Source of the DNA: Acidimicrobiales bacterium
GTDB taxonomy: Bacteria; Actinomycetota; Acidimicrobiia; Acidimicrobiales; MedAcidi-G1
Direction: 5' to 3'
DNA: 64,000 nt
Assembly: GCA_029242745.1 (NCBI GenBank)
Contig: JAQWTI010000035.1
Coordinates: 1 to 64,000, forward strand
Positions 4,318 through 57,426 of the stretch are shown piece after piece; within the stretch, counting starts at the first letter, position 1; each line of letters opens with the position of its first letter. The position numbers were made by a program, and so were the translations under genes. The notes beneath the pieces are model-generated. The model made no database searches. It saw nothing but the letters and a program-made list of their open reading frames with translations, and had not been told where the DNA came from.

Positions 4318-5403
4318 CTACCCGTCGAAGACGACGATGCTGCGGCCGAGGGCGCCAGAACGCATCTCGTCGAATGCGGCATCCACCTCCTCAAGGTGGA
4401 TGTGCCGGTCCACTACCTCGTCGAGCAACAGACGCCCCTCGAGGTAGTGATCGACAAGGAGCGGCATGTCCACCCGGAACCGGTTTGAGCCCATATTGGA
4501 GCCTTGGAGTCTCTTCTCCATAAGGAGTTGGGCTGCCTCGACCTGCATCATCTGACCCTCAGGAACCATGCCGATAACCGTGGCGGTGCCACCAGCCCGC
4601 AACATGCGGAACGACTGCTCAGCGGTTTCGCTACGACCCAGCGCCTCAAATGAATATTCGACTCCACCCTTGGTCAACTCCAGCACGGCCTCGACCGGGT
4701 TCTCCCGGGAGGCATTGACCACATCGGTAGCGCCGACCAAGCGGGCCAAATCCAGTTTGGCCTCGGTTACGTCAACAGCGATGATGCGCCCGGCACCAGT
4801 GATGGCGGCGCCATTAACCACCGACAAGCCGACACCACCGCAGCCGATTACCGCCACGCTGGCCCCTGGGGAAACTCGAGCGGTGTTCGTGACGGCACCG
4901 AAGCCGGTCATCACGGCACAGCCAATCAGAGCGGCTCGGTTTAGCGGCATCTCGTCACGCACCTGCACTATGGCGTTCTCGTGCACCAGCATCTGCTCTG
5001 CGTATGCAGATAGTTCGTAGAGCTGGGTGACCGGCTCGTCGTCGAGAGTTAACCGAGACGGGTCATCAGGGTTGCGCCGCACGGACGGACTCGTACATAG
5101 ATAGGGGCGGCCTCCAGCGCAATCAGCGCAGCGTCCACAGAACACCGACATGCAAGTAATCACCCGGTCGCCAGGCTGCACGTAGGTGACCTCGGATCCG
5201 ACGGCTTCAACAACCCCCGCGGCCTCGTGACCCAAGACAACTGGGAAGTCAATGCCATAGTGGCCCTCGATGAAGTGCAGATCGCTATGACAGACACCGC
5301 AGGCGGCGGTACGAACAATCACCTCATGCGGCCATGGGTTATCTAACTCGACGTCCTCAATGGTGAGCGGTTCACCCACCCCGCGCAGCACCGCTGCCCT
5401 CAT
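4318..5403 (-). CDS. Zinc-dependent alcohol dehydrogenase (MDR superfamily)
   Basis: A 361-residue medium-chain dehydrogenase that would oxidise alcohols or reduce aldehydes with NAD(P). Catalytic zinc ligands are in C-G-V-C-H-S-D (near residue 37) and G-H-E (near 59). The structural zinc lobe shows four cysteines in C-G-R-C-A-D-C then L-C (near 90-103). The Rossmann motif is I-G-C-G-G-V-G. It resembles class III-like and mycobacterial AdhB/AdhD-type enzymes; the substrate cannot be read from sequence. It is a single gene whose stop lies near the gene-free region. The ATG at 5403 has a weak ribosome site. Confidence 0.85.
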   Translation of the reverse strand: MRAAVLRGVGEPLTIEDVELDNPWPHEVIVRTAACGVCHSDLHFIEGHYGIDFPVVLGHEAAGVVEAVGSEVTYVQPGDRVITCMSVFCGRCADCAGGRPYLCTSPSVRRNPDDPSRLTLDDEPVTQLYELSAYAEQMLVHENAIVQVRDEMPLNRAALIGCAVMTGFGAVTNTARVSPGASVAVIGCGGVGLSVVNGAAITGAGRIIAVDVTEAKLDLARLVGATDVVNASRENPVEAVLELTKGGVEYSFEALGRSETAEQSFRMLRAGGTATVIGMVPEGQMMQVEAAQLLMEKRLQGSNMGSNRFRVDMPLLVDHYLEGRLLLDEVVDRHIHLEEVDAAFDEMRSGALGRSIVVFDG

Positions 5404-5569
5404 TGATTCTCCTCACTCGTTTGTCAGCCCACCCTTAGGCTGGAACCCGTCAGTCGGGCGCAGTAAAAAGGTAACAAGCGAACTCTAAGCACACCTGATT
5501 GCACCTGGAGAACAATCAGCAGCCCTGCCCTACTAATCCGATAAACCTCTCTGAAGCCCTGGCGACGGG

Positions 5570-6040
5570 TCAGTAGTCAACCAAAGTTTCGATGACTTGC
5601 TTTCGTTTATGTTCAAAGACAAGTGAGGTTCGATCACCAACCACACCCTCGATGCTGGAGATGCGATCTAGCACCAAGTGGCGCAGATTGTCGGTGTCAG
5701 TAACACTGAGGTGAACGATTAGGTCATCGATTCCAGTAACGAGAAACACGCCAAGGGTCTCTGGAAGCGACATCAGACGCTCTATGGCCCTGTCAATGAC
5801 AGGCCCAGTTTTGGGCCGAAGACGCAGAGTCACAATCGCCTGAATCGGTCGCCCGAGCGCTGCCAAGTCGACATCCGCGTGATAACCGGTGATTACACCC
5901 CGGTCCTCCAAAGAACGAATCCGATCCAACGTCGTTGACGGTGCAAGGCCCACCTCGTTCGCAATCGCCCTGTTCGTCTGTCGTGCATTCGATTGAAGTG
6001 CACCGATAATTTGTGAATCTGACCGACTTATATTTGACAT
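5570..6040 (-). CDS. Lrp/AsnC-family transcriptional regulator
   Basis: A 156-residue regulator with an N-terminal helix-turn-helix (T-N-R-A-I-A-N-E-V-G-L-A-P-S-T) and the usual R-I-R-S-L-E-x-R-G-V-I-x-G-Y linker. A C-terminal ligand-binding (RAM) half contains G-I-D-D-L-I-V-H-L. Such proteins respond to amino acids and often control divergent catabolic genes. The ATG at 6040 gives family-typical length; the upstream extension is AT-rich intergenic sequence. It diverges from the fused indolepyruvate oxidoreductase across about 115 bp, so that gene is the likely target and branched-chain or aromatic amino acids or their keto acids the likely effectors (inferred). Confidence 0.9.
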   Translation of the reverse strand: MSNISRSDSQIIGALQSNARQTNRAIANEVGLAPSTTLDRIRSLEDRGVITGYHADVDLAALGRPIQAIVTLRLRPKTGPVIDRAIERLMSLPETLGVFLVTGIDDLIVHLSVTDTDNLRHLVLDRISSIEGVVGDRTSLVFEHKRKQVIETLVDY

Positions 6041-6154
6041 TTGCTCTCTGTTTCCGTTGATTAAACGATATTTGAATATTGGATACAAATATATGAGATT
6101 ATTGTCTACCAAAGAGCAACTCGTAGTCGCGCAGCGTCAAATAGGAGAACACTC

Positions 6155-9100
6155 ATGACAACCGTCGACAGTTACCGATTGACCGACCGGTACCTGCAGG
6201 ACCAAGGGACCAGCTTCCTGACTGGAGTTCAGGCGCTCGCTCGTGTACCTATTCAACAACTCCGAATCGATCGATTGGTTGGACTCAATACCGCAGCGTT
6301 CGTATCTGGTTACCCAGGCTCCCCACTGGGCGGCTTCGATCAGGAAATAGCGCGAGCTGCTGCTCTTGTTTCCGAACTCCCGATCGTTCACCAGCCGGGT
6401 CTGAATGAAGAACTCGGCGCCTCAGCCGTGATGGGCTCACAGTTGGCATCCGAGCAGCCTGATTTCAACTATGACGGAGTCTTGGGCATTTGGTACGGCA
6501 AGGCCCCCGGACTGGATCGCGCCACTGACGCCCTGAGGCACGCTGTATTTACTGGAACGTCACGTTACGGAGGCGCTCTTGCTCTAGTCGGAGACGATCC
6601 CTCAGCCAAGAGTTCGACATTGCCATCCAGTTCGGATGCTGCCCTCGTCGACCTGCACATACCAATCCTCTATCCGGGAGACGTGCAAGAGATCTTGGAC
6701 TTGGGACGCCACGCCGTTGAACTGTCTCGATTAGCCGGAGTTTGGACATCTCTTAAGATCGTCGCTGCCGTAGGTGATGGAAGTGGTACCGCCGACCTAA
6801 ACCTAGGCCGCACGATCCCAGTGATTCCCGACACGGTCATCGACGGTGTTGCCTACGAACACCGACCTGACGGAAACCTCATCACGCCACACACTCTCGA
6901 GCTGGAAAAGGACTTCCGGGAAGCTCGCGCTGAACTGGTTAGACGCTATGCGCTGGCCAACGGCTTGAACCGAACCACAGTAGACACGCCGGATGCGTGG
7001 ATAGGGATAGTGGCTAGCGGGTTCACCTACTACGAAACGCTCCAGGCCCTCGGACGATTGGGGTTGACCACGCCCACTGAAATCGCTGCAGCCGGCATCC
7101 GTGTCTTCCAGATGCAAATGCCTGTCCCGTTCAACCCATCGGTCATCCAATTATTCGCCAAGGGGCTCGATGAAATTGTCATTGTTGAGGAGAAGAACCC
7201 CACCCTGGAATGGCTGGTCAAAGACGCCCTCTACGGTGGCCCAGACCAACCTGTAGTCGTGGGCAAGACCCATCCCGATGGGCGACCTCTCATGCGCAGC
7301 TGGGGGATTCTCGACGCCGACGCCATGGTCGACGGCCTCCGTGAGCGGATCTCCGCACGCGTCAGTGACCGACTAGTGCCAAAGCAGAAGCCTCGAGAGC
7401 GGATCATGATTCCACTGGCGGTGGAACGGTCCCCGTACTTCTGTTCGGGCTGTCCACACAACTGGAGCACCAAGGTTCACGAAGACGCCTTAGTTGGGGC
7501 CGGCATCGGGTGTCACATGATGGTGCTGCTCATGGACGAGGAACGGGTCGGGTCGACTATCGGCATGACGGCGATGGGCAGTGAAGGTGCCCCCTGGATC
7601 GGCATGTCACCGTTCGTAGATCGCCGGCACTTCACCCAAAACATGGGTGACGGAACGTTCTTCCACTCCGGACAACTCGCCATCCAGGCGGCAGTCGCCG
7701 CCGGCGTCACCGTGACCTACAAGATCCTCTACAACGGCACCGTGGCCATGACAGGCGGTCAGGACGCCGTCGGCGTGACCGGCGTACCTGAAATCAGCAG
7801 AATCCTGCTCGCCCACGGAGTCAACCAAGTGCTGGTCACTACTGAGGATCAGGACCGTTATCGGAGTCTTGAAATGCCGGTTGGCGTAAAGGTCTGGGAC
7901 AGAGAACGCATGGTTGAGGCGCAGGAGGCTCTGGCAGCTGTCGACGGCGTAACGGTACTCATCCATGATCAAGCATGTGCTGCGCAGACCCGCCGACTCC
8001 GGAAGCGTGGCAAGGCCACAACACCGGACTTCCGCGTCGTCATCAACCATCGCCTCTGTGAAGGTTGTGGCGACTGCGGTGAAGTATCCAACTGCTTGTC
8101 TGTCCAGTCTCTAGCGACACCACTAGGCACCAAGACGACCATCGACCAAACGTCATGCAATCTGGACGCAAGTTGTCTGGATGGGGACTGCCCCAGTTTC
8201 ATGACCGTCGCAGTCGACCCTGATGCCCCGGAGCCCGAAGTATCTGGACCCCACACAGAAACTGAACTCAAGACACCGGTGGCTATATCCAACACTGACA
8301 TCGTCGACATCCGCCTCGCTGGGGTGGGTGGCACCGGTGTGGTCACCGTGGCCCAGATACTGGCTACAGCAGCCATGTTTGATGGTTACGAGGTTCGAGG
8401 CCTTGACCAAACCGGAATCTCACAGAAGGCCGGCCCGGTGATAAGCGACGTCAGACTGGCCCGTGGGTCGGAACTGACATCGAGTCTTATCAGCGAAGCC
8501 GGTGCCGACGTGATTCTGGCTTTCGACCTGCTCGTCGGAGCCTCCGACGACGTACTACACGTCGGGCACCCGGAACGAACCGTCTTAATCGCCTCAAGCA
8601 CTGAGACGCCCACCGGATCCATGGTTGGAAGACACGATCACCAGCTCCCCAGTCTCAAAGAGCTTCTGGATCGTGCTGCACCGGTCACCCAGACCACACA
8701 CAACAAGGTCGTCGACGCTGGTGCCGCATGTTTCGAGCTCTTTGGCGATACCTCTGCGGCCAACGTCTACCTATTGGGTGTAGCGATTCAAGCAGGTGTA
8801 ATCCCGATTGCCCCCGTGTCAATCGAACGTGCCATAGAGCTCAACGGAGTGGCAGTCGAACGTAATCTTGCAGCATTCACAGCCGGTCGGGCCGCTGCAG
8901 ACAGCCCCAGTGATACTTCGACAGGTCCCGGGACCGTCTCCGTCATCGTCGACGAACTCCCCACCGCACTCGCAGACCGCGTGACGTCACTGGACGCTCA
9001 AACCCAGTTGGGCCCTCTACTGGAGATGCTTGCTGCCGACCTCGTCGGCTATCAGAGCGACCGATGCGCGTCGACCTTCCTGGATCTGGTCGAGAAAACA

Positions 9101-9631
9101 GCAGTCAAAGAAAACGTGGTCGCGCCGGGATCAACAGAGTTCACCGAGGCCGTAGCACGCGGCCTCCACCACCTCACTGCCTATAAGGACGAGTACGAGG
9201 TGGCCCGCCTCCTTCTGGCACCGGAAGGCCAAGCAGCAGCCGAGGCAGTAGGCGGAGCGTCCGCAAAGGTCTCTTGGCGCCTCCACCCACCAGTGTTCCG
9301 GTCCTTGGGAATGGGAAAGATATCCATACCCATCAAACTTGGCAGGCCATTGATGAAGTTTCTCGCCAAAGGCCGCCGCCTCCGAGGAACCGCATGGGAC
9401 CCCTTCGGTCGGACCGAAGTGCGTCGCTTGGAACAACTCTTGGTGCAGGAATACACCGCAGTAGTTCAACAGCTTCTTGCTGGCCTCACTGCTGAAAACC
9501 TCAGCAACGGAGTCAAAGTTGCCTCGGCTGCCATGCAGGTGAAGGGTTACGAATCACTCAAATTGGCTAGCGGCCGAGCACTCCTTCAAATAATTGAGGC
9601 ACAGCAGCCGTCACAACAAAAAGTTCTCTAA
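6155..9631 (+). CDS. Fused indolepyruvate:ferredoxin oxidoreductase
   Basis: A 1158-residue single-chain 2-oxoacid:ferredoxin oxidoreductase that would decarboxylate indolepyruvate or related arylpyruvates and branched keto acids to acyl-CoA with reduction of ferredoxin. Domains in order: the N-terminal pyrimidine-binding half (G-Y-P-G-S-P-L-G-G near residue 51); the thiamine-diphosphate half with Y-F-C-S-G-C-P-H-N near 430; a cysteine-rich 4Fe-4S segment, C-E-G-C-G-D-C-G, near 632-650 with further cysteines to about 685; the gamma domain starting at G-V-G-G-T-G-V-V near 718; and a C-terminal all-alpha region typical of fused forms. In archaea these parts are separate subunits (IorA, IorB). 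The start at 6155 has AGGAG 9-13 nt upstream. It is probably controlled by the divergent Lrp/AsnC gene. Confidence 0.9.
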   Translation: MTTVDSYRLTDRYLQDQGTSFLTGVQALARVPIQQLRIDRLVGLNTAAFVSGYPGSPLGGFDQEIARAAALVSELPIVHQPGLNEELGASAVMGSQLASEQPDFNYDGVLGIWYGKAPGLDRATDALRHAVFTGTSRYGGALALVGDDPSAKSSTLPSSSDAALVDLHIPILYPGDVQEILDLGRHAVELSRLAGVWTSLKIVAAVGDGSGTADLNLGRTIPVIPDTVIDGVAYEHRPDGNLITPHTLELEKDFREARAELVRRYALANGLNRTTVDTPDAWIGIVASGFTYYETLQALGRLGLTTPTEIAAAGIRVFQMQMPVPFNPSVIQLFAKGLDEIVIVEEKNPTLEWLVKDALYGGPDQPVVVGKTHPDGRPLMRSWGILDADAMVDGLRERISARVSDRLVPKQKPRERIMIPLAVERSPYFCSGCPHNWSTKVHEDALVGAGIGCHMMVLLMDEERVGSTIGMTAMGSEGAPWIGMSPFVDRRHFTQNMGDGTFFHSGQLAIQAAVAAGVTVTYKILYNGTVAMTGGQDAVGVTGVPEISRILLAHGVNQVLVTTEDQDRYRSLEMPVGVKVWDRERMVEAQEALAAVDGVTVLIHDQACAAQTRRLRKRGKATTPDFRVVINHRLCEGCGDCGEVSNCLSVQSLATPLGTKTTIDQTSCNLDASCLDGDCPSFMTVAVDPDAPEPEVSGPHTETELKTPVAISNTDIVDIRLAGVGGTGVVTVAQILATAAMFDGYEVRGLDQTGISQKAGPVISDVRLARGSELTSSLISEAGADVILAFDLLVGASDDVLHVGHPERTVLIASSTETPTGSMVGRHDHQLPSLKELLDRAAPVTQTTHNKVVDAGAACFELFGDTSAANVYLLGVAIQAGVIPIAPVSIERAIELNGVAVERNLAAFTAGRAAADSPSDTSTGPGTVSVIVDELPTALADRVTSLDAQTQLGPLLEMLAADLVGYQSDRCASTFLDLVEKTAVKENVVAPGSTEFTEAVARGLHHLTAYKDEYEVARLLLAPEGQAAAEAVGGASAKVSWRLHPPVFRSLGMGKISIPIKLGRPLMKFLAKGRRLRGTAWDPFGRTEVRRLEQLLVQEYTAVVQQLLAGLTAENLSNGVKVASAAMQVKGYESLKLASGRALLQIIEAQQPSQQKVL

Positions 9632-48487: not shown

Positions 48488-49723
48488 ATGACCGAAACAG
48501 ATCCGACCGAAGCGGTGGGCCCCATGCGCGGCGTGAAGGTTGTCGAGTTGGGTGTCTGGGTAGCCGGACCAGCGACAGCAGGTGTTCTCGCTGACTGGGG
48601 CGCCGACGTGATCAAGATCGAACCCCCGACGGGGGACCCATGTCGTCAGTTCCAGCGAATGCTGGGAGGCGACATGCCCACCAACCCAATCTTTGAAATG
48701 GATAACCGATCCAAGCGGAGCATTGCTGTGGACCTGGGCACTGACGACGGTCTCGCTATCGCTCTCGAGTTGCTGGCCGATGCTGACGTTTTCGTCACCA
48801 ACCTGCGGGTTGGAGCGCTGGCCAGACTAGGTATCGACCACCCATCTGTCGCCAGCCGCTTCCCTCGACTGGTGTATTGCCAGATCACCGGATACGGCAG
48901 CGACGGCGAGGACGCTGATCGGGCCGCTTACGATGTCGGCGCCTTCTGGGCGCGGTCTGGATTGGCATCGCTACTGACTCCTCCTGACGGGGACCCGCCG
49001 TTTCAGCGCGGAGGAATGGGAGATCACTCAACTGCACTAGCGGCGGCGGCCGCCGTCTCAGCCGCCCTGTTCGAGAGAGAGCGCTATGGCCAAGGCCAGT
49101 TGGTGGAAACGTCCCTAATACGCCAGGGGGCCTACACGATCAGTTTTGATCTGAACCTGCTGCTCATGTGGGGTGTAACTCTAGATATCGGTGACCGAGC
49201 GTCCATGGGTAACCCGGCCATGAATAATTACATAGCGCGCTGTGGCCGTAGATTCTGGATTGTCGGGTTGGAGGGTGAGCGTCACTGGCCACCACTGGCT
49301 CGCGCTGTCGGCCATCCTGAATGGCTCAACGACAACCGGTTCGCTCAGCCCCGGGAACGCGCCACCAACTCCCGCGAACTCATAAGCATGCTGGACGAGA
49401 TCTTTGCAACCCGCACATTGGATGAGTGGGCTGATGTGTTCAGCACTGAACCCGACTTCTTCTGGGCCCCCGTGAATACTCCAGAAGAGCTGCTGAACGA
49501 TCCAGCCTTCCATGGCTCAGGGGCCTTGCTGGAAGTGCCAGATGAAGTATCGACCACCACCATGGTGGCCACACCAGTCGATTTCCGCGGCACTCCATGG
49601 ACAACCCGGTCGATGGCCCCAATGATCGGGGAGCACACGCGCGAGGTGCTAGCCGGTATCGGTCGGCCCGAGGCCGAGATCGACGCGTTGGTGGCTTCAG
49701 GAACGGTGGTTGAGCCGATCTAA
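48488..49723 (+). CDS. CaiB/BaiF-type CoA-transferase
   Basis: A 411-residue class III CoA-transferase with the full N-terminal signature (G-V-K-V-V-E-L-G-V-W-V-A-G-P, then D-W-G-A-D-V-I-K-I-E-P-P), N-R-S-K-R-S-I-A-V-D-L, and Q-I-T-G-Y-G. The catalytic Asp expected near residue 165 lies in G-G-M-G-D-H-S. It moves CoA between carboxylates. AAGGAAGGTGGACGGAG precedes the ATG. Its end overlaps the convergent hydrolase by 4 nt. Confidence 0.92.
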   Translation: MTETDPTEAVGPMRGVKVVELGVWVAGPATAGVLADWGADVIKIEPPTGDPCRQFQRMLGGDMPTNPIFEMDNRSKRSIAVDLGTDDGLAIALELLADADVFVTNLRVGALARLGIDHPSVASRFPRLVYCQITGYGSDGEDADRAAYDVGAFWARSGLASLLTPPDGDPPFQRGGMGDHSTALAAAAAVSAALFERERYGQGQLVETSLIRQGAYTISFDLNLLLMWGVTLDIGDRASMGNPAMNNYIARCGRRFWIVGLEGERHWPPLARAVGHPEWLNDNRFAQPRERATNSRELISMLDEIFATRTLDEWADVFSTEPDFFWAPVNTPEELLNDPAFHGSGALLEVPDEVSTTTMVATPVDFRGTPWTTRSMAPMIGEHTREVLAGIGRPEAEIDALVASGTVVEPI

Positions 49724-50676
49724 CCGACTGGGAGAGCAGCGATCGTCGATTCCAAGGCCTCCAGATCTACAGAACGGGCCTTCCCACTCGATGGGACAAG
49801 AGGGGCGAAGATCCAATAGCCGTGCACCTGCTCCTCGTGATGAATCACCTTTACCGGCACCCCAGCCGATCGGAGAACCTCGGCGTAGGCCAGCCCCTCG
49901 TCCCGAAGGGGGTCGAATCCAGCCACGATGACAGTTGCGGGTGGCAGATCCTCATGACGCAAAGCACGAATCGGCGCAACTAGGGGTTCAGAGGTGAGGT
50001 CCCGACCTCCGGCCAGGTTCTCGGCAAACCAGCGCATGGTTGACAATTCTAAAAAATATCCTGCACCATTCTCCTCCAACGAGCGCCAGTTTCCTGAGTC
50101 GTAATCAAAGTCGGTAGCCGGATAGATCAGGAACTGGTGAGCGATGGCCGGCCCACTCCGGTCCCGGGCCATCAGCGAAAGGACTGCGCTTAGGTTGCCA
50201 CCGGCGCTGTCACCAGCCACCACTATTCGCTGGGGATCAATCCCGAGTTCTTCTGAACGCTCCGACACCCAGCAGAGGGTCGCCCAGGCGTCGTCGACAG
50301 CCGCTGGAAATGGAAATTCGGGGGCCAGCCGGTACTCGAGAGCTACCACGACGGCACCACACGTCGAAGCGACCGCACGACACTGCTCGTCATAGCCATC
50401 TAGGTCACCGATTGTCCATCCACCACCATGCAGATAGAGAATGACTGGGGCCCTGTCACCACACCCCTCATTTCGGTAGATCCGTACCGGCAGGTCACCT
50501 TCTGGCCCTGGCAGATTCCGTTCAGAAACCTCTGCCACCTCGGCAGCTAGGTGCTGGCTGCTGGTGCAGATGGCCCGGTAGCCCTTTCTTCGCTCCTCGA
50601 GGTCAAAGGGGTGGTTGGGCACTTTTTGGCCCGCTGTCAGGTCAAGCAAGGGTTGGAGATCAGCGGCTACGGGCAC
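49720..50676 (-). CDS. HSL-family alpha/beta-hydrolase (esterase)
   Basis: A 318-residue hormone-sensitive-lipase-type esterase: oxyanion motif L-H-G-G-G-W (about residue 80), nucleophile elbow G-D-S-A-G-G-N, acidic residue in G-F-D-P-L-R-D, and histidine in E-Q-V-H-G-Y-W. It hydrolyses short acyl esters. It starts 15 nt downstream of the selenoprotein gene on the same strand and may be co-transcribed with it. Confidence 0.92.
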   Translation of the reverse strand: MPVAADLQPLLDLTAGQKVPNHPFDLEERRKGYRAICTSSQHLAAEVAEVSERNLPGPEGDLPVRIYRNEGCGDRAPVILYLHGGGWTIGDLDGYDEQCRAVASTCGAVVVALEYRLAPEFPFPAAVDDAWATLCWVSERSEELGIDPQRIVVAGDSAGGNLSAVLSLMARDRSGPAIAHQFLIYPATDFDYDSGNWRSLEENGAGYFLELSTMRWFAENLAGGRDLTSEPLVAPIRALRHEDLPPATVIVAGFDPLRDEGLAYAEVLRSAGVPVKVIHHEEQVHGYWIFAPLVPSSGKARSVDLEALESTIAALPVG

Positions 50677-50691
50677 GGAATCACAAGACGA

Positions 50692-51621
50692 TTAAGGGGT
50701 GGACTCAGCGGCTATACGGTCGGATTCGTACTGGTACTGCGGCACGTCAACCCGTTCATTACGAGTGTCGCTGTTGCCATCCGTGCCTCCGTCAGATAGT
50801 CCACCCTCAGCTTCTATCCCTGTCGGGGTTGCCCGCCGCTTCCAATCGCCGTCTGCATCCCACGACATACCGGTAGGGGCAATGGTTCCGGGGCGATCCA
50901 TGGCCTCAGCTGCGGCAAAGGCCCGCCGCAGCAGATTGCGTTGAAACTCTGGGTCATGAGGACGGCCCACAGTGTGGCCGAGCGGCAGGTCTGAGAAAGC
51001 AGCCCTTGGCGGGTTGACTGACGCTGTGATGCTGTAGGCAGAGGTCAAGCAGAGAGTCGGCACACCAGCGGCCTCTAGCGCCCTCGCAACCAGACCAACG
51101 GTCTGGTGGCAAACTGGTCAAACGGGCACCAGCAATGCAAGGTCGATGTCCATAGCCAAGACCGCGACAACCACGGCAGGAGCCAGTTCTTCTGTTGCCC
51201 TGCGTGCTGAGTAGATCCCACCCATGCATCCGAGCGCAGTGGGGGCTAGACCGCCGATCACTCCTTCGTCCACCAGCTCGTGTAAGCGGTCTACAGGAAA
51301 GACAATGTTTGGATCAGAGCGCGCTGGCTCAAGATCGTAGGCAAAGTGGGTTACGCGAACATCTGCGGCCGGCTCGTCAGCCGGGATGTGCCGCAGCCCG
51401 GTGTCGTCCTTCCAGTGGAACGCTACCTGGCCCTCTCGGTAGGCCCCGCCCGAACCAATCAGAGCCACAGTGCAATCGGACAGCGGGCGGGCTAACGGAG
51501 TCCACGGTGGCTGCTCAGGAGGTTCAGCCCACTGATAAGGCGGATAGCCAAGAGCGTCGTACCGAGCTCGGGTTAAGGCGATGTAATCGACTGGCGACAA
51601 CGCTCCTGATCGACTTTCCAT
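50692..51621 (-). CDS. Candidate selenoprotein, glycine/sarcosine/betaine reductase component-B-like
   Basis: A 309-residue protein if the UGA at 51118-51120 is read as selenocysteine (Sec168). The two halves are in the same frame and read as one protein across the UGA: L-A-L-L-V-P-V-U-P-V-C-H-Q-T-V-G-L-V-A-R, then L-T-S-A-Y and N-P-P-R-A-A-F and L-G-H-T-V-G-R-P. The U-P-V-C pair matches the redox CxxC-type site of GrdB-like proteins. Immediately downstream is a hairpin of bSECIS geometry (51089-51107). Start ATG 51621 gives G-Y-P-P-Y-Q-W near residue 25. The family is a recalled match to selenoprotein B-like proteins; the reductase role is not proven, and partners (GrdA, selA/B/C/D) are not in the window. 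Alternative: a nonsense-mutated Cys form. Confidence 0.78.
51089..51120 (-). promoter_or_regulatory. UGA codon plus bacterial-SECIS-like hairpin
   Basis: After the UGA (51118-51120) there are 10 nt (51108-51117). A perfect 8-bp stem follows (ACCAGACC/GGUCUGGU on the minus strand), closing the 3-nt loop GUU at 51097-51099. The UGA-to-loop distance is 18 nt and the first loop base is G. This agrees with published bSECIS geometry (loop of 3 or more nt, G in the first two loop positions, 16-37 nt spacing). The stem lies inside the coding sequence, as bacterial SECIS elements do. Confidence 0.65.
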
Positions 51622-51701
51622 TACACCATCGTGGCACCTTTGGTCCATCGATACCCGATCCGGCCTGCTGCAAGAGGCAACTGGCTCCAAGGATCGAAGT
51701 A

Positions 51702-51730
51702 TCGACACTGAGAGTTGCTACTCGTACAAT
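51702..51730 (+). promoter_or_regulatory. Promoter for a leaderless merR-men transcript
   Basis: A -35 box TCGACA (51702-51707, one mismatch to TTGACA), a 17-nt spacer and a -10 box TACAAT (51725-51730). The expected transcription start 6-7 nt later coincides with the GTG start codon at 51737, and there is no ribosome site, so the message is probably leaderless. Leaderless transcripts are common in actinobacteria. Confidence 0.65.
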
Positions 51731-51736
51731 CTAGGT

Positions 51737-52519
51737 GTGGTTGATGTAGATCTTGATGACGGGCACTCTCTCGCTGGGCTCACGGTTGACGAGGTGGCCG
51801 CGGCAACGGGTCTAGGCGTCGACACTGTGCGCTATTACCAGCGACTAGGCCTGCTGGATGCACCAGAACGACATGGCCGTCGCGCCATCTATTCCAATGC
51901 ACACCTAGCCCGTATTGCCGAGATCCGGCGTCTGGCCGACGACGGCTTTACTCTTGCCCAGATCGGCACACTCGGAGCCGAGGGGCCTCCGACAGATGTC
52001 GTCGACGACCTCCAGCGTCTTGCTAACGAGGCTCTGGGCCGCAGCCTTTCACGCTCTGAAGTAGCCAGACAGGCCAAAGTACCCGAGGGTCTAGTCGCCC
52101 TACTGGTAGACAACGGCCTCCTTGCACCGATCGTCTCTGAACCCGAACAGCGATTTGACGAAGGGGCAGTCTCAATGGTGCGGGCCGGACTAGCCATAAG
52201 CGCCGCAGGTGTTCCGCTCGACGAGCTGGTGGCTCTGGCTATTGACCACGGCGCGCATGTCGACAAGGTGGTCGAACGGGCGGTCGAGTTGTTCGATCGC
52301 CACGTGCGTTCTGATCACGAGGAAGCTGATCTTCTGGTCGAAGTAGTCCGTTCTCTGTTGCCAGCAGTGACCCGTCTAGTTGCGCAGCACTTCCACAGGA
52401 CACTGGTGTCTCGAGCCCATGATCAGGCTGGAGAACGAGATGGTGGAGGTCTGAACTTGGCTGATGCCCTGCTGGCCGCCAACGCTGACCGCCTTGAGGT
52501 GGACGTCCGATGGCGCTGA
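51737..52519 (+). CDS. MerR-family transcriptional regulator
   Basis: A 260-residue regulator with the MerR helix-turn-helix (T-V-D-E-V-A-A-A-T-G-L-G-V-D-T-V-R-Y-Y-Q-R) and wing (G-R-R-A-I-Y-S). A long C-terminal half continues past residue 100 with a second, weaker match to a MerR-like domain (R-S-E-V-A-R-Q-A-K-V). GTG start sits at the predicted transcription start. Its last 10 nt overlap menF, which ties it to the menaquinone operon. It may control that operon or the divergent selenoprotein gene. Confidence 0.85.
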   Translation: MVDVDLDDGHSLAGLTVDEVAAATGLGVDTVRYYQRLGLLDAPERHGRRAIYSNAHLARIAEIRRLADDGFTLAQIGTLGAEGPPTDVVDDLQRLANEALGRSLSRSEVARQAKVPEGLVALLVDNGLLAPIVSEPEQRFDEGAVSMVRAGLAISAAGVPLDELVALAIDHGAHVDKVVERAVELFDRHVRSDHEEADLLVEVVRSLLPAVTRLVAQHFHRTLVSRAHDQAGERDGGGLNLADALLAANADRLEVDVRWR

Positions 52520-53847
52520 CTACCAATGCCGACTCGTTCAAGCCCTCAGAGATGACGCGAGCCACCACGATCGAGTTGCACACCGGGCCGGCACTTGATC
52601 CTTTGGCCTGGCTGGCTGCCACTTCAACTGACGATGAGGCCTGGTATTGGGAGGTCCCCAACGACGACACCTCATGGGTTGGTCTCGGAACCGCTGCTGT
52701 CGTCAATGTCGAGGGTGCTGGCCGCTTCGCCGACGCCGCAACTGCGGCAGCCCGCCTCTTGGATGGCATCAAACTTGACGCCCCGCTGGGGGCTCCAGCG
52801 ATAAGGATCGCGGCGGGATTTGCCTTCGACCACCACCTGCACAAAACACCCACTCCTTGGTCTGCCTTCGGCACTGGGAGACTTGTGCTACCTGCTGTTC
52901 AAATAACTCGTCATGCCGGACGGACATGGGTGACTCGAGTTGAAGACGAAGATCGACCAACACCACTTTTCAACATCCCGAATCCATCCACTACTGAAAC
53001 CGCAGAACCATCCGACCACACTGACCTGGCAGCCCGCGAGCACTACCGGCAGTTGGTGCGTTTGGCATTAGCTGCCGTCAAACGAGGTGACTTAGAAAAG
53101 GCCGTACCGTGTCGTTCGATTCAAATCAGCCACCGACCAGAGCTGACCTCGTTGCTAGCTGCCTTGCGGTTCACCTACCCAACATGCGCGACCCTAGCGG
53201 TGCGTCCGAGCGGAGGCGCTGCCACGTTCGTTGGCGCCACACCGGAGCGACTAGCCGCAGTGCACACTGGGCACCTACACACCGCTGCACTCGCCGGGTC
53301 GGCACCCCGTGATCCGGATCCAGCCATCGACGCCTCCCTCGGTCAAGGACTACTCATAAGCCCTAAGGAAAGAGCCGAACACGCTGTGGTGGTGGATGCA
53401 ATCGACCGGGCATTGCATGGTCTCGGTGTGAGCGACCGTCATCCCAGAAACCCCGTCCTGCTGCAACTCCACGGCATCCAGCACCTTCACACACCCATTG
53501 ACGCTGAACTACCCGAGGGCGTCGGCTTGCTGGAACTGGTCGGTGCTCTCCACCCAACCCCAGCCGTTTCCGGCTACCCAGGCGAACCAGCCGCCGAACT
53601 TCGGACAACTCACGAAGGCATGGAGCGTGGCTGGTTTGCCAGTCCCGTCGGATGGCTGGACGCAACGGGAGACGGCGAGTTCCGGGTTGCTCTGCGAACT
53701 GGGCTGATTCACCGTGACGGCACAACGCTGTACGCCGGCGCTGGCGTAGTGGCCGGCTCGGACCCTGACCGCGAACTAGCCGAGACCGATGTCAAGCTCC
53801 GCACTCTTCTTGGACTGGTGCTGGCGGCAGAAAGTACAGCCTCATGA
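52510..53847 (+). CDS. menF: Isochorismate synthase
   Basis: A 445-residue chorismate-utilising enzyme that converts chorismate to isochorismate with Mg2+. The chorismate-binding C-terminal half contains F-V-G-A-T-P-E-R-L and G-S-A-P-R-D, then K-E-R-A-E-H-A-V-V, and H-P-T-P-A-V-S-G-Y-P near the end. First dedicated step of menaquinone synthesis. The identity as MenF rather than EntC or DhbC follows from the next genes. Starts inside the end of the MerR gene and overlaps menD by 4 nt. Confidence 0.92.
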   Translation: MALTTNADSFKPSEMTRATTIELHTGPALDPLAWLAATSTDDEAWYWEVPNDDTSWVGLGTAAVVNVEGAGRFADAATAAARLLDGIKLDAPLGAPAIRIAAGFAFDHHLHKTPTPWSAFGTGRLVLPAVQITRHAGRTWVTRVEDEDRPTPLFNIPNPSTTETAEPSDHTDLAAREHYRQLVRLALAAVKRGDLEKAVPCRSIQISHRPELTSLLAALRFTYPTCATLAVRPSGGAATFVGATPERLAAVHTGHLHTAALAGSAPRDPDPAIDASLGQGLLISPKERAEHAVVVDAIDRALHGLGVSDRHPRNPVLLQLHGIQHLHTPIDAELPEGVGLLELVGALHPTPAVSGYPGEPAAELRTTHEGMERGWFASPVGWLDATGDGEFRVALRTGLIHRDGTTLYAGAGVVAGSDPDRELAETDVKLRTLLGLVLAAESTAS

Positions 53848-55592
53848 CACGTCTCCCGAAATCAGATCCAGTGGCTGTCCAGGCTTGGTGTCGTACTCTG
53901 TTTGCCCAACTAGCAGCATGCGGAGTAGCCCACGTGGCCGCCTCCCCAGGTTCCCGCTCCACACCCTTGACGGTCGCCGCCGATCAAACTCCTGGCCTCG
54001 ACGTTTCCATGCATCTTGACGAACGGGTTGGCGGTTTCTTCGCTCTGGGACTGGCCCGAGTCACCGGTCGTCCAGTTGTCCTCTTGTGCACCTCAGGCAC
54101 CGCAGCCGCCAACTACCTTCCAGCAGTCATCGAGGCTTTTCATTCTGGAGTCCCTCTTGTGGTGCTAACGGCCGATCGTCCCCCCGAACTACAAGGTGTC
54201 GGTGCTCCCCAGACCATCAACCAAGAAGGCATCTACGGCAGCCACGTGCGGTGGGCCGCAACCACAGCAGTGGCAGGCACCGAGGACCCCGGCGCTGCGG
54301 CCTCGGTTGCTCACCAAGTTGTGGTTCGGGCAACTCGACCGATCCCCGGCCCGACACACCTGAATGTGCCGTTACGCGAGCCGCTAGAGCCACCGGCCAT
54401 TGATCCGCTCTCCATCGGTTTACTTCCCCTTCCACCCGACAGTGCTCCAGTCGAGTTGGGTTGCCTCGCCGATCTTGTATTAGGTAATGCTCGGCCCGAA
54501 CGAGGCCTAATTGTGGCTGGACCCATGGACCCCTCCCCTGCCGGTCGAGTGGCGCTCGCCGAGTTGGCTCGGAGGACAGGTTGGCCCATATTGGCCGATC
54601 CCGTGTCTGGCCTCCGCCGCGGACCACATGTCGCCAACGCTCCGGTACTAGCCACCGGCGACCACTTGCTCCGATCCTCTTGGGCCGACGACCACCGTCC
54701 CGACGTCATAATCCAGTGTGGTGGGATGCCTACCAGCAAGGGCTACTACCTCTGGTTGAACCGAGTGGGCGCCGGACGCGTTGTGGCCGTCGACCACCTC
54801 GAACGCTTCCCCGACGCCGCCCTGCAGGTCACTGATCGGCTAGCCGTGGAGCCAGGTCGACTAGCCGATCGGCTCGTCGGGCGTATCTCCAGCGAGAGCC
54901 AATCCACCGACTGGACCCGCATTTGGACGGAGGCCGAAACAAGCGCTGCATCGGCTGTGGCAGACCTCGTCGCCGGCGCCCCATTTGACGAACCCGGCGT
55001 GGTGTCCGCCCTCGATGCCGCACTCGGTGATTTCGTCACCCTGGTGGCTGGCAATTCCATGCCACTTCGTGATCTTGATGCCTTTCTACCAGTTGACGTC
55101 CGAGATTGGTCGATTCGTGGCAACCGGGGCGCCAACGGGATCGACGGGCAGGTCTCATCGGCCATGGGGATGGCTGCTGGTTCAGCGAGCCCGACGGTGC
55201 TGCTAGCTGGCGATCTCACCGTACTCCACGACCTCGGCGGCCTCGTCGCTGCTCGACGACTAAACATCGATCTCACGGTGGTGGTAGTCGATAACAACGG
55301 TGGTGGAATTTTTTCGTTTTTGCCCATAGCCAACGAGAGGCACATCGATCACCACCGACTCTTTCACACTCCCCATGGTCTGGACCTTTCCCATGCTGCC
55401 GCCCTAGCCGACGCCACCTTCCATCAACCAACCGACCGGCTCACCCTCGAGGCAGCGCTCATCGCCTCAGTAGGCACACCTGGCCTGCACGTCGTTCACG
55501 TCAAGACTGATGCGGCCGTAAACGTCGGACTCCACCGCGAGGCCACCCGTGTGGTCGACCACTCCCTTCACGATCTAGGGGCAGGGAGGTGA
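53844..55592 (+). CDS. menD: SEPHCHC synthase MenD
   Basis: A 582-residue thiamine-diphosphate enzyme that joins 2-oxoglutarate (after decarboxylation) to isochorismate. N-terminal A-S-P-G-S-R-S-T-P-L-T and H-L-D-E-R-V-G-G-F-F-A-L-G are family signatures. The cofactor region shows G-N-S-M-P-L-R-D, then R-G-N-R-G-A-N-G-I-D-G and V-D-N-N-G-G-G-I-F. Stop overlaps the menH GTG start by 4 nt. Confidence 0.96.
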   Translation: MTRLPKSDPVAVQAWCRTLFAQLAACGVAHVAASPGSRSTPLTVAADQTPGLDVSMHLDERVGGFFALGLARVTGRPVVLLCTSGTAAANYLPAVIEAFHSGVPLVVLTADRPPELQGVGAPQTINQEGIYGSHVRWAATTAVAGTEDPGAAASVAHQVVVRATRPIPGPTHLNVPLREPLEPPAIDPLSIGLLPLPPDSAPVELGCLADLVLGNARPERGLIVAGPMDPSPAGRVALAELARRTGWPILADPVSGLRRGPHVANAPVLATGDHLLRSSWADDHRPDVIIQCGGMPTSKGYYLWLNRVGAGRVVAVDHLERFPDAALQVTDRLAVEPGRLADRLVGRISSESQSTDWTRIWTEAETSAASAVADLVAGAPFDEPGVVSALDAALGDFVTLVAGNSMPLRDLDAFLPVDVRDWSIRGNRGANGIDGQVSSAMGMAAGSASPTVLLAGDLTVLHDLGGLVAARRLNIDLTVVVVDNNGGGIFSFLPIANERHIDHHRLFHTPHGLDLSHAAALADATFHQPTDRLTLEAALIASVGTPGLHVVHVKTDAAVNVGLHREATRVVDHSLHDLGAGR

Positions 55593-56422
55593 CTATTTCA
55601 AAGAAAGCCTTCCTGCACATCGAGTTTGATGGGCCAACCGCAGGAAAGGGAAACTGTCGCCCAGTCGCCCTTCTGCACGGCTTTACCGGGTCGACGGCCA
55701 CCATGTGGCCTCTCGGCGGCCGACTAATTGACATCCGCCAAGTGGCCGCCGTTGACCTGCCAGGGCATGGTCACAACGATCTAGGTGGTGATGCTCAAGT
55801 ATTTGGCTTCGAACACACCGTTGACGCCGTTGCCCGGGTACTTGACCAGCACCAACTCTGCCCGGTCCACATCATCGGCTATTCCATGGGTGGTCGGATA
55901 GCAATCGGCCTAGCAGCGCGCTATCCGGAAAGCATTGCTTCTCTCTCCCTCATCGGTGCGTCTCCGGGACTATCCAACCCGGTAGAGCGAGCCGCCCGAC
56001 GTCGAGCCGACGACGAGTTGGCCGATGATCTTCTTGAAAACGGCTTGGCCGCCTTTGTGGACCGTTGGATGGCTAGTCCAATATTCGCCAGTCAGAGCCG
56101 TCTCGGCAGCGACGCCTTAGAGTTTGCTCGAGTCCAGCGCTTGGCTAACGATCCCGATGGTCTGGCTGGCAGTCTCCGAGGTGCTGGAGCCGGTGCCCAA
56201 CCATCGCAGTGGCATCATCTGGCGGACATCGAAGTGCCCGTTCTGCTGCTCGCAGGAGAGGAAGATCCAAAGTTCCGAGCCATTGCCATTCGTATGGCGG
56301 CTGCCCTCCCCAGAGCCACCATCAGGGTTGTGCCTAACGCTGGTCACGCTGCACACCTAGAAAATCCGACCTACGTAATGCATGTGATCGAGGAATTCCT
56401 AGACCAAGTGGACAGTCTGTGA
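55589..56422 (+). CDS. menH: SHCHC synthase MenH (alpha/beta-hydrolase)
   Basis: A 277-residue alpha/beta-hydrolase that would eliminate pyruvate from SEPHCHC. L-H-G-F-T-G-S is the oxyanion segment, I-G-Y-S-M-G-G-R-I-A the elbow, L-A-G-E-E-D-P-K the acid, and A-G-H-A-A-H-L-E the histidine. Position between menD and menC is the main reason to call MenH; a few residues alone would leave a general hydrolase. GTG start after AGGGAGG, with short spacing. Confidence 0.88.
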   Translation: MTISKKAFLHIEFDGPTAGKGNCRPVALLHGFTGSTATMWPLGGRLIDIRQVAAVDLPGHGHNDLGGDAQVFGFEHTVDAVARVLDQHQLCPVHIIGYSMGGRIAIGLAARYPESIASLSLIGASPGLSNPVERAARRRADDELADDLLENGLAAFVDRWMASPIFASQSRLGSDALEFARVQRLANDPDGLAGSLRGAGAGAQPSQWHHLADIEVPVLLLAGEEDPKFRAIAIRMAAALPRATIRVVPNAGHAAHLENPTYVMHVIEEFLDQVDSL

Positions 56423-57426
56423 TATCCGATCTGAGTCAACTCGAGGTCCGTGAGATCCAACTCGAACGAGTGACACTTCAATTTCACAATCCGATATCAA
56501 CCTTCCACGGCCCATTGACTACACGAGACGTAATAATTCTGACCGCCTCCGACGCTTCGGGAAACCTCGGTTTTGGAGAAGCCGCTCCACTGGCAGGGTT
56601 CACACCCGAAACCCTCCAAGAGGTCGAAAATGCCCTCTCCGAATGGGCGAGAGACAGTGATCCGGGCCACTTGACCGGGCGACCAACGGCGCAGGCCGCT
56701 GTCGACGCCGCTCTCCTTGACCTCGCTTCCCAGATTGCTGGCCGGCCGCTTCATGACCTAATCAATCCCGGCAGCCCGTCGGTGCTACCGGTTTCCGCCC
56801 TGATCAATGGTCAGACTCCAGAGGAAGCAGCCGAGTCCGCCGGTGCTGCGGTGGACGCCGGCTACAAGACGGTGAAACTCAAGGTCGGCTTGCTCTCGTT
56901 CTCCGAAGACATCGCTCGAGTCGCCGCCGTGCGCACAGCTGTCGGTGACACAAAGTTCCGAGTCGACGCAAACGGAGCTTGGAGACCCACTGAGGCCATC
57001 GACCACCTAACCCGGCTCAACAGGTACCACCTAGAGTTCATCGAGGAACCTGTCAGGGGTCTAGAGGCTCTGGCCGCCGTACGGGCCAACTCGCCCGTCC
57101 CGGTCGCCTCCGATGAGTCAGTTCGGACCATCGACGACCTGCACCGCGCAATAAAACTCGGCAGCGCCGACATCGTGGTGCTTAAGCCCAGCGCGTTGGG
57201 AGGACCTCAGCTGACAGCGGCCGCAGCCCAAGTAGCCATAGATGCTGGCCTCCCTGTGGTGTTGACCTCTCTATTGGAGAGCTCAGTGGGAATCCGGTCC
57301 ACAGCACACCTAGCATCAGCACTAGGAGCCCTCGATCCGGCCCCTGGTTTAGCCACTGCCACACTGCTGGCCACTGACTCGGGGACGCCCTTTCTTCCCA
57401 TCGACGGGCAACTCCACCTCGGCTGA
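56419..57426 (+). CDS. menC: o-Succinylbenzoate synthase
   Basis: A 335-residue enolase-superfamily enzyme that dehydrates SHCHC to o-succinylbenzoate. The catalytic set is visible: K-L-K-V-G, D-A-N-G-A-W, E-E-P-V-R-G, A-S-D-E-S-V and a late K-P-S-A-L-G-G. Metal ligands are the Asp and two acids of these motifs. GTG overlaps the menH stop. No menE, menB or menA follows; they must lie elsewhere. Confidence 0.95.
   Translation: MISDLSQLEVREIQLERVTLQFHNPISTFHGPLTTRDVIILTASDASGNLGFGEAAPLAGFTPETLQEVENALSEWARDSDPGHLTGRPTAQAAVDAALLDLASQIAGRPLHDLINPGSPSVLPVSALINGQTPEEAAESAGAAVDAGYKTVKLKVGLLSFSEDIARVAAVRTAVGDTKFRVDANGAWRPTEAIDHLTRLNRYHLEFIEEPVRGLEALAAVRANSPVPVASDESVRTIDDLHRAIKLGSADIVVLKPSALGGPQLTAAAAQVAIDAGLPVVLTSLLESSVGIRSTAHLASALGALDPAPGLATATLLATDSGTPFLPIDGQLHLG

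Follow-up and report, generated by a model that had tools for sequence, protein, structure and literature searches.

The minus strand of the window, by which we mean the whole analysed stretch of 64,000 nucleotides, carries a gene that is predicted to encode a selenoprotein of the PrdB/GrdB family and that lies between a hydrolase gene and a divergent group formed by a regulator and menaquinone genes (Table 1). Gene calling with translation table 11 splits this locus into a first frame that ends at 51118, comprising 196 aa from an upstream GTG or 167 codons from the ATG, and a second frame of 123 aa at 50692-51063. The initial annotation had described such a split, with a 167-codon and a 123-codon frame around one TGA, and this as well as its coordinates (50692-51621) and its peptide across TGA codon 168, VPV-U-PVCHQ, proved to be right, the strand being the minus strand.

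Table 1. Features of the selenoprotein locus and its surroundings, in window positions
Feature	Position	Strand	Details
Predicted PrdB/GrdB-family selenoprotein gene	50692..51621	minus	309 residues, Sec at 168; translation with TGA as Sec
Start and stop of this gene	ATG start at 51621; stop codon 50694-50692	minus	
In-frame UGA (Sec168)	51118..51120	minus	codon 168, UxxC motif U-P-V-C
Bacterial SECIS-type hairpin (predicted)	51089..51107	minus	8-bp stem ACCAGACC/GGUCUGGU, loop GUU, 10 nt after UGA
Hormone-sensitive-lipase-like alpha/beta hydrolase	49720..50676	minus	15 nt downstream; PF07859 242.4 bits
MerR-family regulator, divergent	51737..52519	plus	PF13411 65.9 bits
Menaquinone genes (labelled menF, menD, menH, menC)	52510..57426	plus	first two genes matched to the PF00425 and TPP_enzyme families

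The UGA codon in relatives of the gene

Six 8-residue patterns, including one with Cys at the column of Sec168, were scanned against 84,980 species genomes and yielded 31 named relatives. It had been proposed to see whether homologues carry Cys or UGA at this column, and indeed nothing else occurs there: TGA is found in 23 of the relatives and a Cys codon (TGC or TGT) in eight, a ratio that is not a census, as all 31 are exact matches to one of the six patterns. The TGA forms comprise 22 loci labelled Acidimicrobiia or other Actinomycetota (L043 is partial) and one labelled Deltaproteobacteria, while the Cys forms carry proteobacterial labels, in one case Desulfobacteraceae. Several relatives bear marine sample labels, such as ETNP, ALOHA or MedDCM. 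The protein alignment was built from 25 of the 31 relatives together with P0001; L023, L030, L038, L040 and L043 were dropped by choice, and L050 was dropped due to an in-frame stop within its match. This last locus (L050:6001-6768), which is labelled Rhizobiaceae, has Cys at the column, and its in-frame stop is a separate one upstream of that column.

Within the order to which the window belongs, 31 of 118 genomes contain matches to the PrdB-like gene, 70 matches in total. A single in-frame TGA is present in 68 of these, one of which also has a TAG, and the two matches that are free of TGA are a Cys form and one that ends before the column. The Cys form (PHCPVCHQ; G040 C14:83306-84136, L090) stems from a genome that also has three TGA-bearing matches. 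Thirty of the 70 matches were fetched (L055-L084, with L055 being the window gene itself), and all 30 have the TGA at the Sec168 column. The named and the order-level sets may share organisms, as for example L032 and L057.

The gene continues to look like a coding sequence beyond the UGA. In comparison with 22 relatives, amino-acid identity is 0.75 up to the UGA and 0.69 beyond it, a third-position excess is present on both sides (23 sequences), the relatives align across most of the length of the protein, and no further stop was found in any of the 23 Sec-form sequences. A pseudogene with a genuine stop at the TGA, or a sequencing or assembly error that turned TGC or TGT into TGA, might be suspected from the eight named Cys forms, from the Cys form inside the order and from the fact that the genome is a draft of 55 contigs. 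Against this, 23 of 31 named relatives and all 30 fetched order-level loci (among them the window) share the TGA at this codon, selection persists past it and the Sec forms lack other stops, so that we regard such an explanation as having practically no chance of being correct. An assembly error, which the initial annotation had named as a possible refutation, is contradicted by the recurrence of the TGA in separately assembled genomes. As judged from the sequences, the locus is one selenoprotein gene, neither a sequencing error nor two genes. Standard calling splits this gene and would likewise split its TGA-bearing relatives, and a recurrent enzyme family can therefore stay hidden in the genomes of this order.

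The hairpin and the selenocysteine machinery

According to the passages available from a survey of marine selenoproteins (PMC1088965), a bacterial SECIS element is a hairpin that follows closely on the UGA and has a G in its small apical loop. The predicted hairpin of the window agrees with this description in its 8-bp stem, its GUU loop and its covariation over 34 distinct rows. A spacer of 10 nt (51117-51108) is followed by the stem, in which 51107-51100 face 51096-51089 around the loop at 51099-51097; counted from the end of the UGA, the loop G is base 19. The G-first trinucleotide loop had thus been recognized correctly from the outset, and the 8-bp stem likewise holds; the accompanying statement that 18 nt lead to the hairpin, however, holds only with the 5' arm included in the count. 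RNA folding, which had been suggested as a check, returned the 8-bp stem with the GUU loop at -27.8 kcal/mol for 61 nt (z -3.04; two of 200 shuffles did equally well). For the window sequence by itself, a more stringent control is weak, with 128 of 1000 synonymous recodings of a 39-nt stretch folding as well; for five other loci these numbers were 6, 42, 43, 22 and 177 of 1000.

More telling is the comparison between loci. The covariation set comprises 43 loci (34 distinct rows), namely the window, 23 named Sec loci and 19 order-level loci (L056-L073, L078); ten loci with UPLC, UPEC, UPFC or UPDC motifs (L074-L077, L079-L084) were left out. Measured against shuffles that do not preserve relatedness, 93.0% of the stem cells are paired in the 34 distinct rows (shuffled mean 86.7%), 21 cells have changed on both sides (7.6 when shuffled) and the covariation score of the stem is 0.223 (0.105 when shuffled), and none of these three values was reached in any of 500 shuffles; two of the five covariation measures do not stand out, being matched by 141 and 42 of 500 shuffles. 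When the partner is slid by one to three columns, only 11.8-52.2% of the cells pair and the score is 0.001-0.158. In the true register, the second pair of the stem is C-G, U-A or G-C, the fifth is G-C, G-U or A-U, and the sixth is A-U, U-A or, once, U-G. Pairing is not complete in all rows: the loop-closing pair 21-25 is unpaired in 10 of the 34 distinct rows, and the pairs 15-31 and 19-27 are unpaired in 4 and 5 of them. Synonymous divergence, counted in 23 sequences (the window and L020-L041), averages 0.51 up to the UGA and 0.53 beyond codon 180, and the minimum of all 301 seven-codon windows coincides with the hairpin (codons 171-177, 0.156), with the next separate low window, codons 68-74, being nearly as low (0.178). 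Together, base-pair covariation, the minimum of synonymous divergence and the TGA/Cys column rule out chance as the origin of the predicted hairpin.

The assembly from which the window stems (2.44 Mb in 55 contigs, 94.7% complete) was searched for selA, selB, selC and selD, whose absence from the genome would have spoken against selenocysteine, and all four are present over curated cut-offs: selA with 401.5 bits (cut-off 267.9), selB with 265.1 bits (242.25), the tRNA-Sec with 67.5 bits (47) and selD with 343.6 bits (125). A single contig of 30.9 kb carries selA, selB and the tRNA-Sec, for which ARAGORN reports the anticodon tca and Rfam a full-length match. The SelD protein itself has a UGA and reads HGAGUGCK. 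As the SelB match spans model positions 2-340 of 581, the SECIS-binding end of SelB is not matched. With SelA, SelB, tRNA-Sec and SelD encoded, the claim that this organism makes selenoproteins is supported.

In the order as a whole, the tRNA-Sec was found in 70 of 118 genomes, more precisely in 27 of the 31 with a PrdB-like match versus 43 of the 87 without (Fisher p 2.3e-4, which is only a guide because the genomes are related). The four genomes with a PrdB-like match and no tRNA-Sec match (G001, G030, G047, G070) are in 310-570 contigs, and two of them, G030 and G047, are 92% and 96% complete; the filters of this search were stricter and tend to lose weak matches. Taking relatives, hairpin and machinery together, we consider it almost certain that UGA codon 168 is recoded as selenocysteine via the hairpin directly downstream.

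Family membership and gene neighbourhood

The protein matches PF07355 (GrdB) with 26.9 bits against a gathering threshold of 22, and the designation "GrdB-like" that it had received is thus apt at the superfamily level, with PrdB being the nearer relative. The match to TIGR04483 (PrdB) amounts to 145 bits (E 2.4e-42) and aligns residues 37-247 with model positions 17-227 of 238, which leaves a C-terminal extension (residues 248-309) beyond the model; this is about half of the equivalog cut-off of 300. Homology to GrdB/GrdF/GrdH, the selenoprotein B of glycine, sarcosine and betaine reductase, covers about residues 84-234 and concerns the C-terminal part of GrdB, whereas the N-terminal part of GrdB is absent and the score for TIGR01918 is 34 bits versus a subfamily cut-off of 65.45. 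These scores place the protein in the GrdB/PrdB superfamily and outside the D-proline reductase equivalog as curated, and by them it is a PrdB-like member of the family that is closer to PrdB than to GrdB. Viral contigs gave no match.

As TIGR04483 is the best family, the protein could be taken for a true subunit of D-proline reductase that works with the pyruvoyl proprotein PrdA. The score, however, stays at 145 bits versus 300, and no PrdA over the cut-off was found in the 94.7% complete draft; the best match (15.4 bits versus 700) falls in a GrdG/FarE-like gene elsewhere, whose whole protein is a remote PrdA relative with 27.7 bits. Also, the MerR, menaquinone and hydrolase neighbours are not kept outside one lineage, and we think that a D-proline reductase of this kind is very unlikely. 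Because these PrdB-like proteins are present where the search for PrdA found none over the cut-off, calling them "D-proline reductase" is probably wrong.

The hydrolase gene downstream, which scores 338.5 bits against LipP1 (cut-off 350), is possibly co-transcribed with the selenoprotein gene. Of the 22 close loci, 14 have it next to the gene; among the remaining eight, three are loci that end in or close to the gene. All 22 close loci have MerR and menF near the gene, while none of the nine other named loci does; the 29 order-level loci L056-L084, whose sequences extend only about 1.5 kb from the gene, include two with MerR nearby. Being kept in close loci and rare outside them, the MerR/menaquinone setting represents inherited synteny of one lineage; the neighbours pointed out by the initial annotation are present, but were discarded as a guide to function. 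The Pfam scan covered menF and menD of the four menaquinone labels, and these genes are the setting of the selenoprotein gene and not evidenced partners of it.

When open frames of 110 codons or more within some 1.5 kb were clustered, no neighbour turned out to be common to all 29 order-level loci. Two of the clusters are the two halves of the selenoprotein gene, and several recurring frames that overlap it look like shadow frames. Loci L070-L072 have two neighbours in common, and a cluster in four loci of the UPLC/UPEC type (L074, L075, L080, L081) may include a real downstream gene. Genes for CaiB-type CoA-transferases, identified by tblastn and open frames and confirmed by Pfam for L042 and L046, adjoin seven of the eight Cys forms on the same strand and lie some 3.5 kb off in the eighth. 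As for the substrate, they point to CoA-linked acid metabolism, though only as a hint, since the seven include six Burkholderiales-like forms that are related to one another. A scan for promoters and terminators gave one site resembling a promoter, with 0.4 expected, and one resembling a terminator, with 1.2 expected, which is not evidence for either, and one 7-nt inverted repeat lies in 51600-51760.

Possible function and related selenoproteins

An AlphaFold model, in which Sec was modelled as Cys, has a mean pLDDT of 88.3 and a pTM of 0.90 and places residue 168 between a strand (161-165) and a helix (169-184), with Cys171 three residues on. A Foldseek search of this model against the PDB returned nothing at E<=0.001, the best match being a phage neck-tail protein at 4.8e-3 with a query TM of 0.30; of two sequence and profile searches of the PDB, one gave 0 hits and the other three with E 0.19-0.54, which are not usable.

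We favor, with some reserve, a stand-alone reductive mechanism for this enzyme. The selenol of Sec168 would attack a small organic substrate as nucleophile, in a reductive cleavage as in the reduction of glycine, betaine, sarcosine or D-proline, or in a reduction of the thiol-disulfide type. Cys171 might then resolve the intermediate as a selenenylsulfide, which a thioredoxin-type donor would re-reduce, and the enzyme would probably work without a dedicated pyruvoyl partner. The remote PrdA relative of this genome, the GrdG-like protein with 27.7 bits, could in principle be such a partner.

An alternative use of the UxxC motif is that of a thioredoxin-like, thiol-disulfide or peroxide-type antioxidant selenoprotein that does not reduce C-X bonds. 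The position of the motif at the start of a helix is in line with this, and the Sargasso Sea authors put PrdB among the thiol-dependent redox families in the available part of their report (PMC1088965). No thioredoxin-type entry, however, is among the best 50 Foldseek matches listed, and no match of any kind reaches E<=0.001. GrdB and PrdB are also described, in the accessible part of a review, as performing the reductive cleavage of small amino acids (PMC13188914), and a GrdB-like operon appears in the available text of PMC10838667 as the candidate for the defluorination of fluoroacetate. An antioxidant role is thus unlikely in our view.

The protein might also serve as an extra B component, binding substrate and feeding the GrdA/GrdC system of this genome, as GrdA, GrdB-like, GrdC and GrdG-like genes are present on contig C24. 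The distribution in the order argues against this, since of 118 genomes GrdA occurs in 11 and the PrdB-like gene in 31, with both found only in two (G000, the window's own, and G030). In G054 and G096, the two remaining members of the window's family, the PrdB-like gene is present and GrdA gave no match, and a feeder role for the window protein seems highly improbable. Genomes of the order have up to five PrdB-like matches each, and at least some hosts have aerobic respiration genes. It is conceivable, as a tentative proposal, that Acidimicrobiia-type bacteria use expanded Sec-containing PrdB-like enzymes without a pyruvoyl partner for an undescribed reductive bond cleavage.

The novelty implied by the initial annotation was overstated. 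As far as the accessible passages go, Sec-containing PrdB with a UxxC motif was reported in 2005 as the third most abundant known selenoprotein family in the Sargasso Sea, with 42 genes (PMC1088965), and in 2008 with 235 genes in GOS (PMC2398784), and the kind of protein was for this reason already known. The window gene has the family label and the UxxC motif in common with this marine "proline reductase PrdB" family, a likeness by description and not by comparison of sequences. In the available portions of their main texts these two reports name no host lineage, the word "actinobacteria" occurring 0 times. Reviews of 2022 and 2026 list PrdB and GrdB in the parts that are accessible (PMC9312934, PMC13188914), and PMC5649159, the one paper found for selenocysteine together with Acidimicrobiia, mentions selenocysteine once. 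No assignment of the marine PrdB family to Acidimicrobiia was found in the open-access literature among the matches listed. What is documented here is this particular member and its SECIS element, by which a known but unassigned marine selenoprotein family is placed in a named lineage, with a SECIS supported by covariation and an occurrence where no PrdA was found.

The genome contains further candidate selenoproteins. A second PrdB-like selenoprotein gene (L052, from 1456 plus) lies on contig C27 and reads U-P-L-C-T-R-T, and UPLC, UPEC and UPFC genes like it recur in the order. On contig C24, a cluster of the glycine/sarcosine/betaine-reductase type (L087, 58000-76000, there 5190-9388 minus) has two more. 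One is GrdA (C24:62753-63178 minus, within L089), with Sec in CFVUTSAG and 155.6 bits to PF04723 (cut-off 22). The other is a GrdB-like gene (L087:6682-7995 minus) that reads TSTUGTGTRSGS and scores 383.8 bits to TIGR01918 (cut-off 65.45), while it misses the equivalog or exception cut-offs for glycine, sarcosine and betaine; its motif is U-G-T-G, whereas UxxC would put Cys as the fourth residue. Also encoded in this cluster are GrdC beta, with 597.7 bits to NF040746 (cut-off 450), and a GrdG/FarE-like protein, with 216.8 bits where the cut-off is 780. Across the order, 11 of 118 genomes have a GrdA with one TGA. The window's genome also has two matches over the cut-off to subunit I of haem-copper oxidase, and a Grd-type cluster in a genome with such an oxidase is the more striking observation, though incidental to the window gene.
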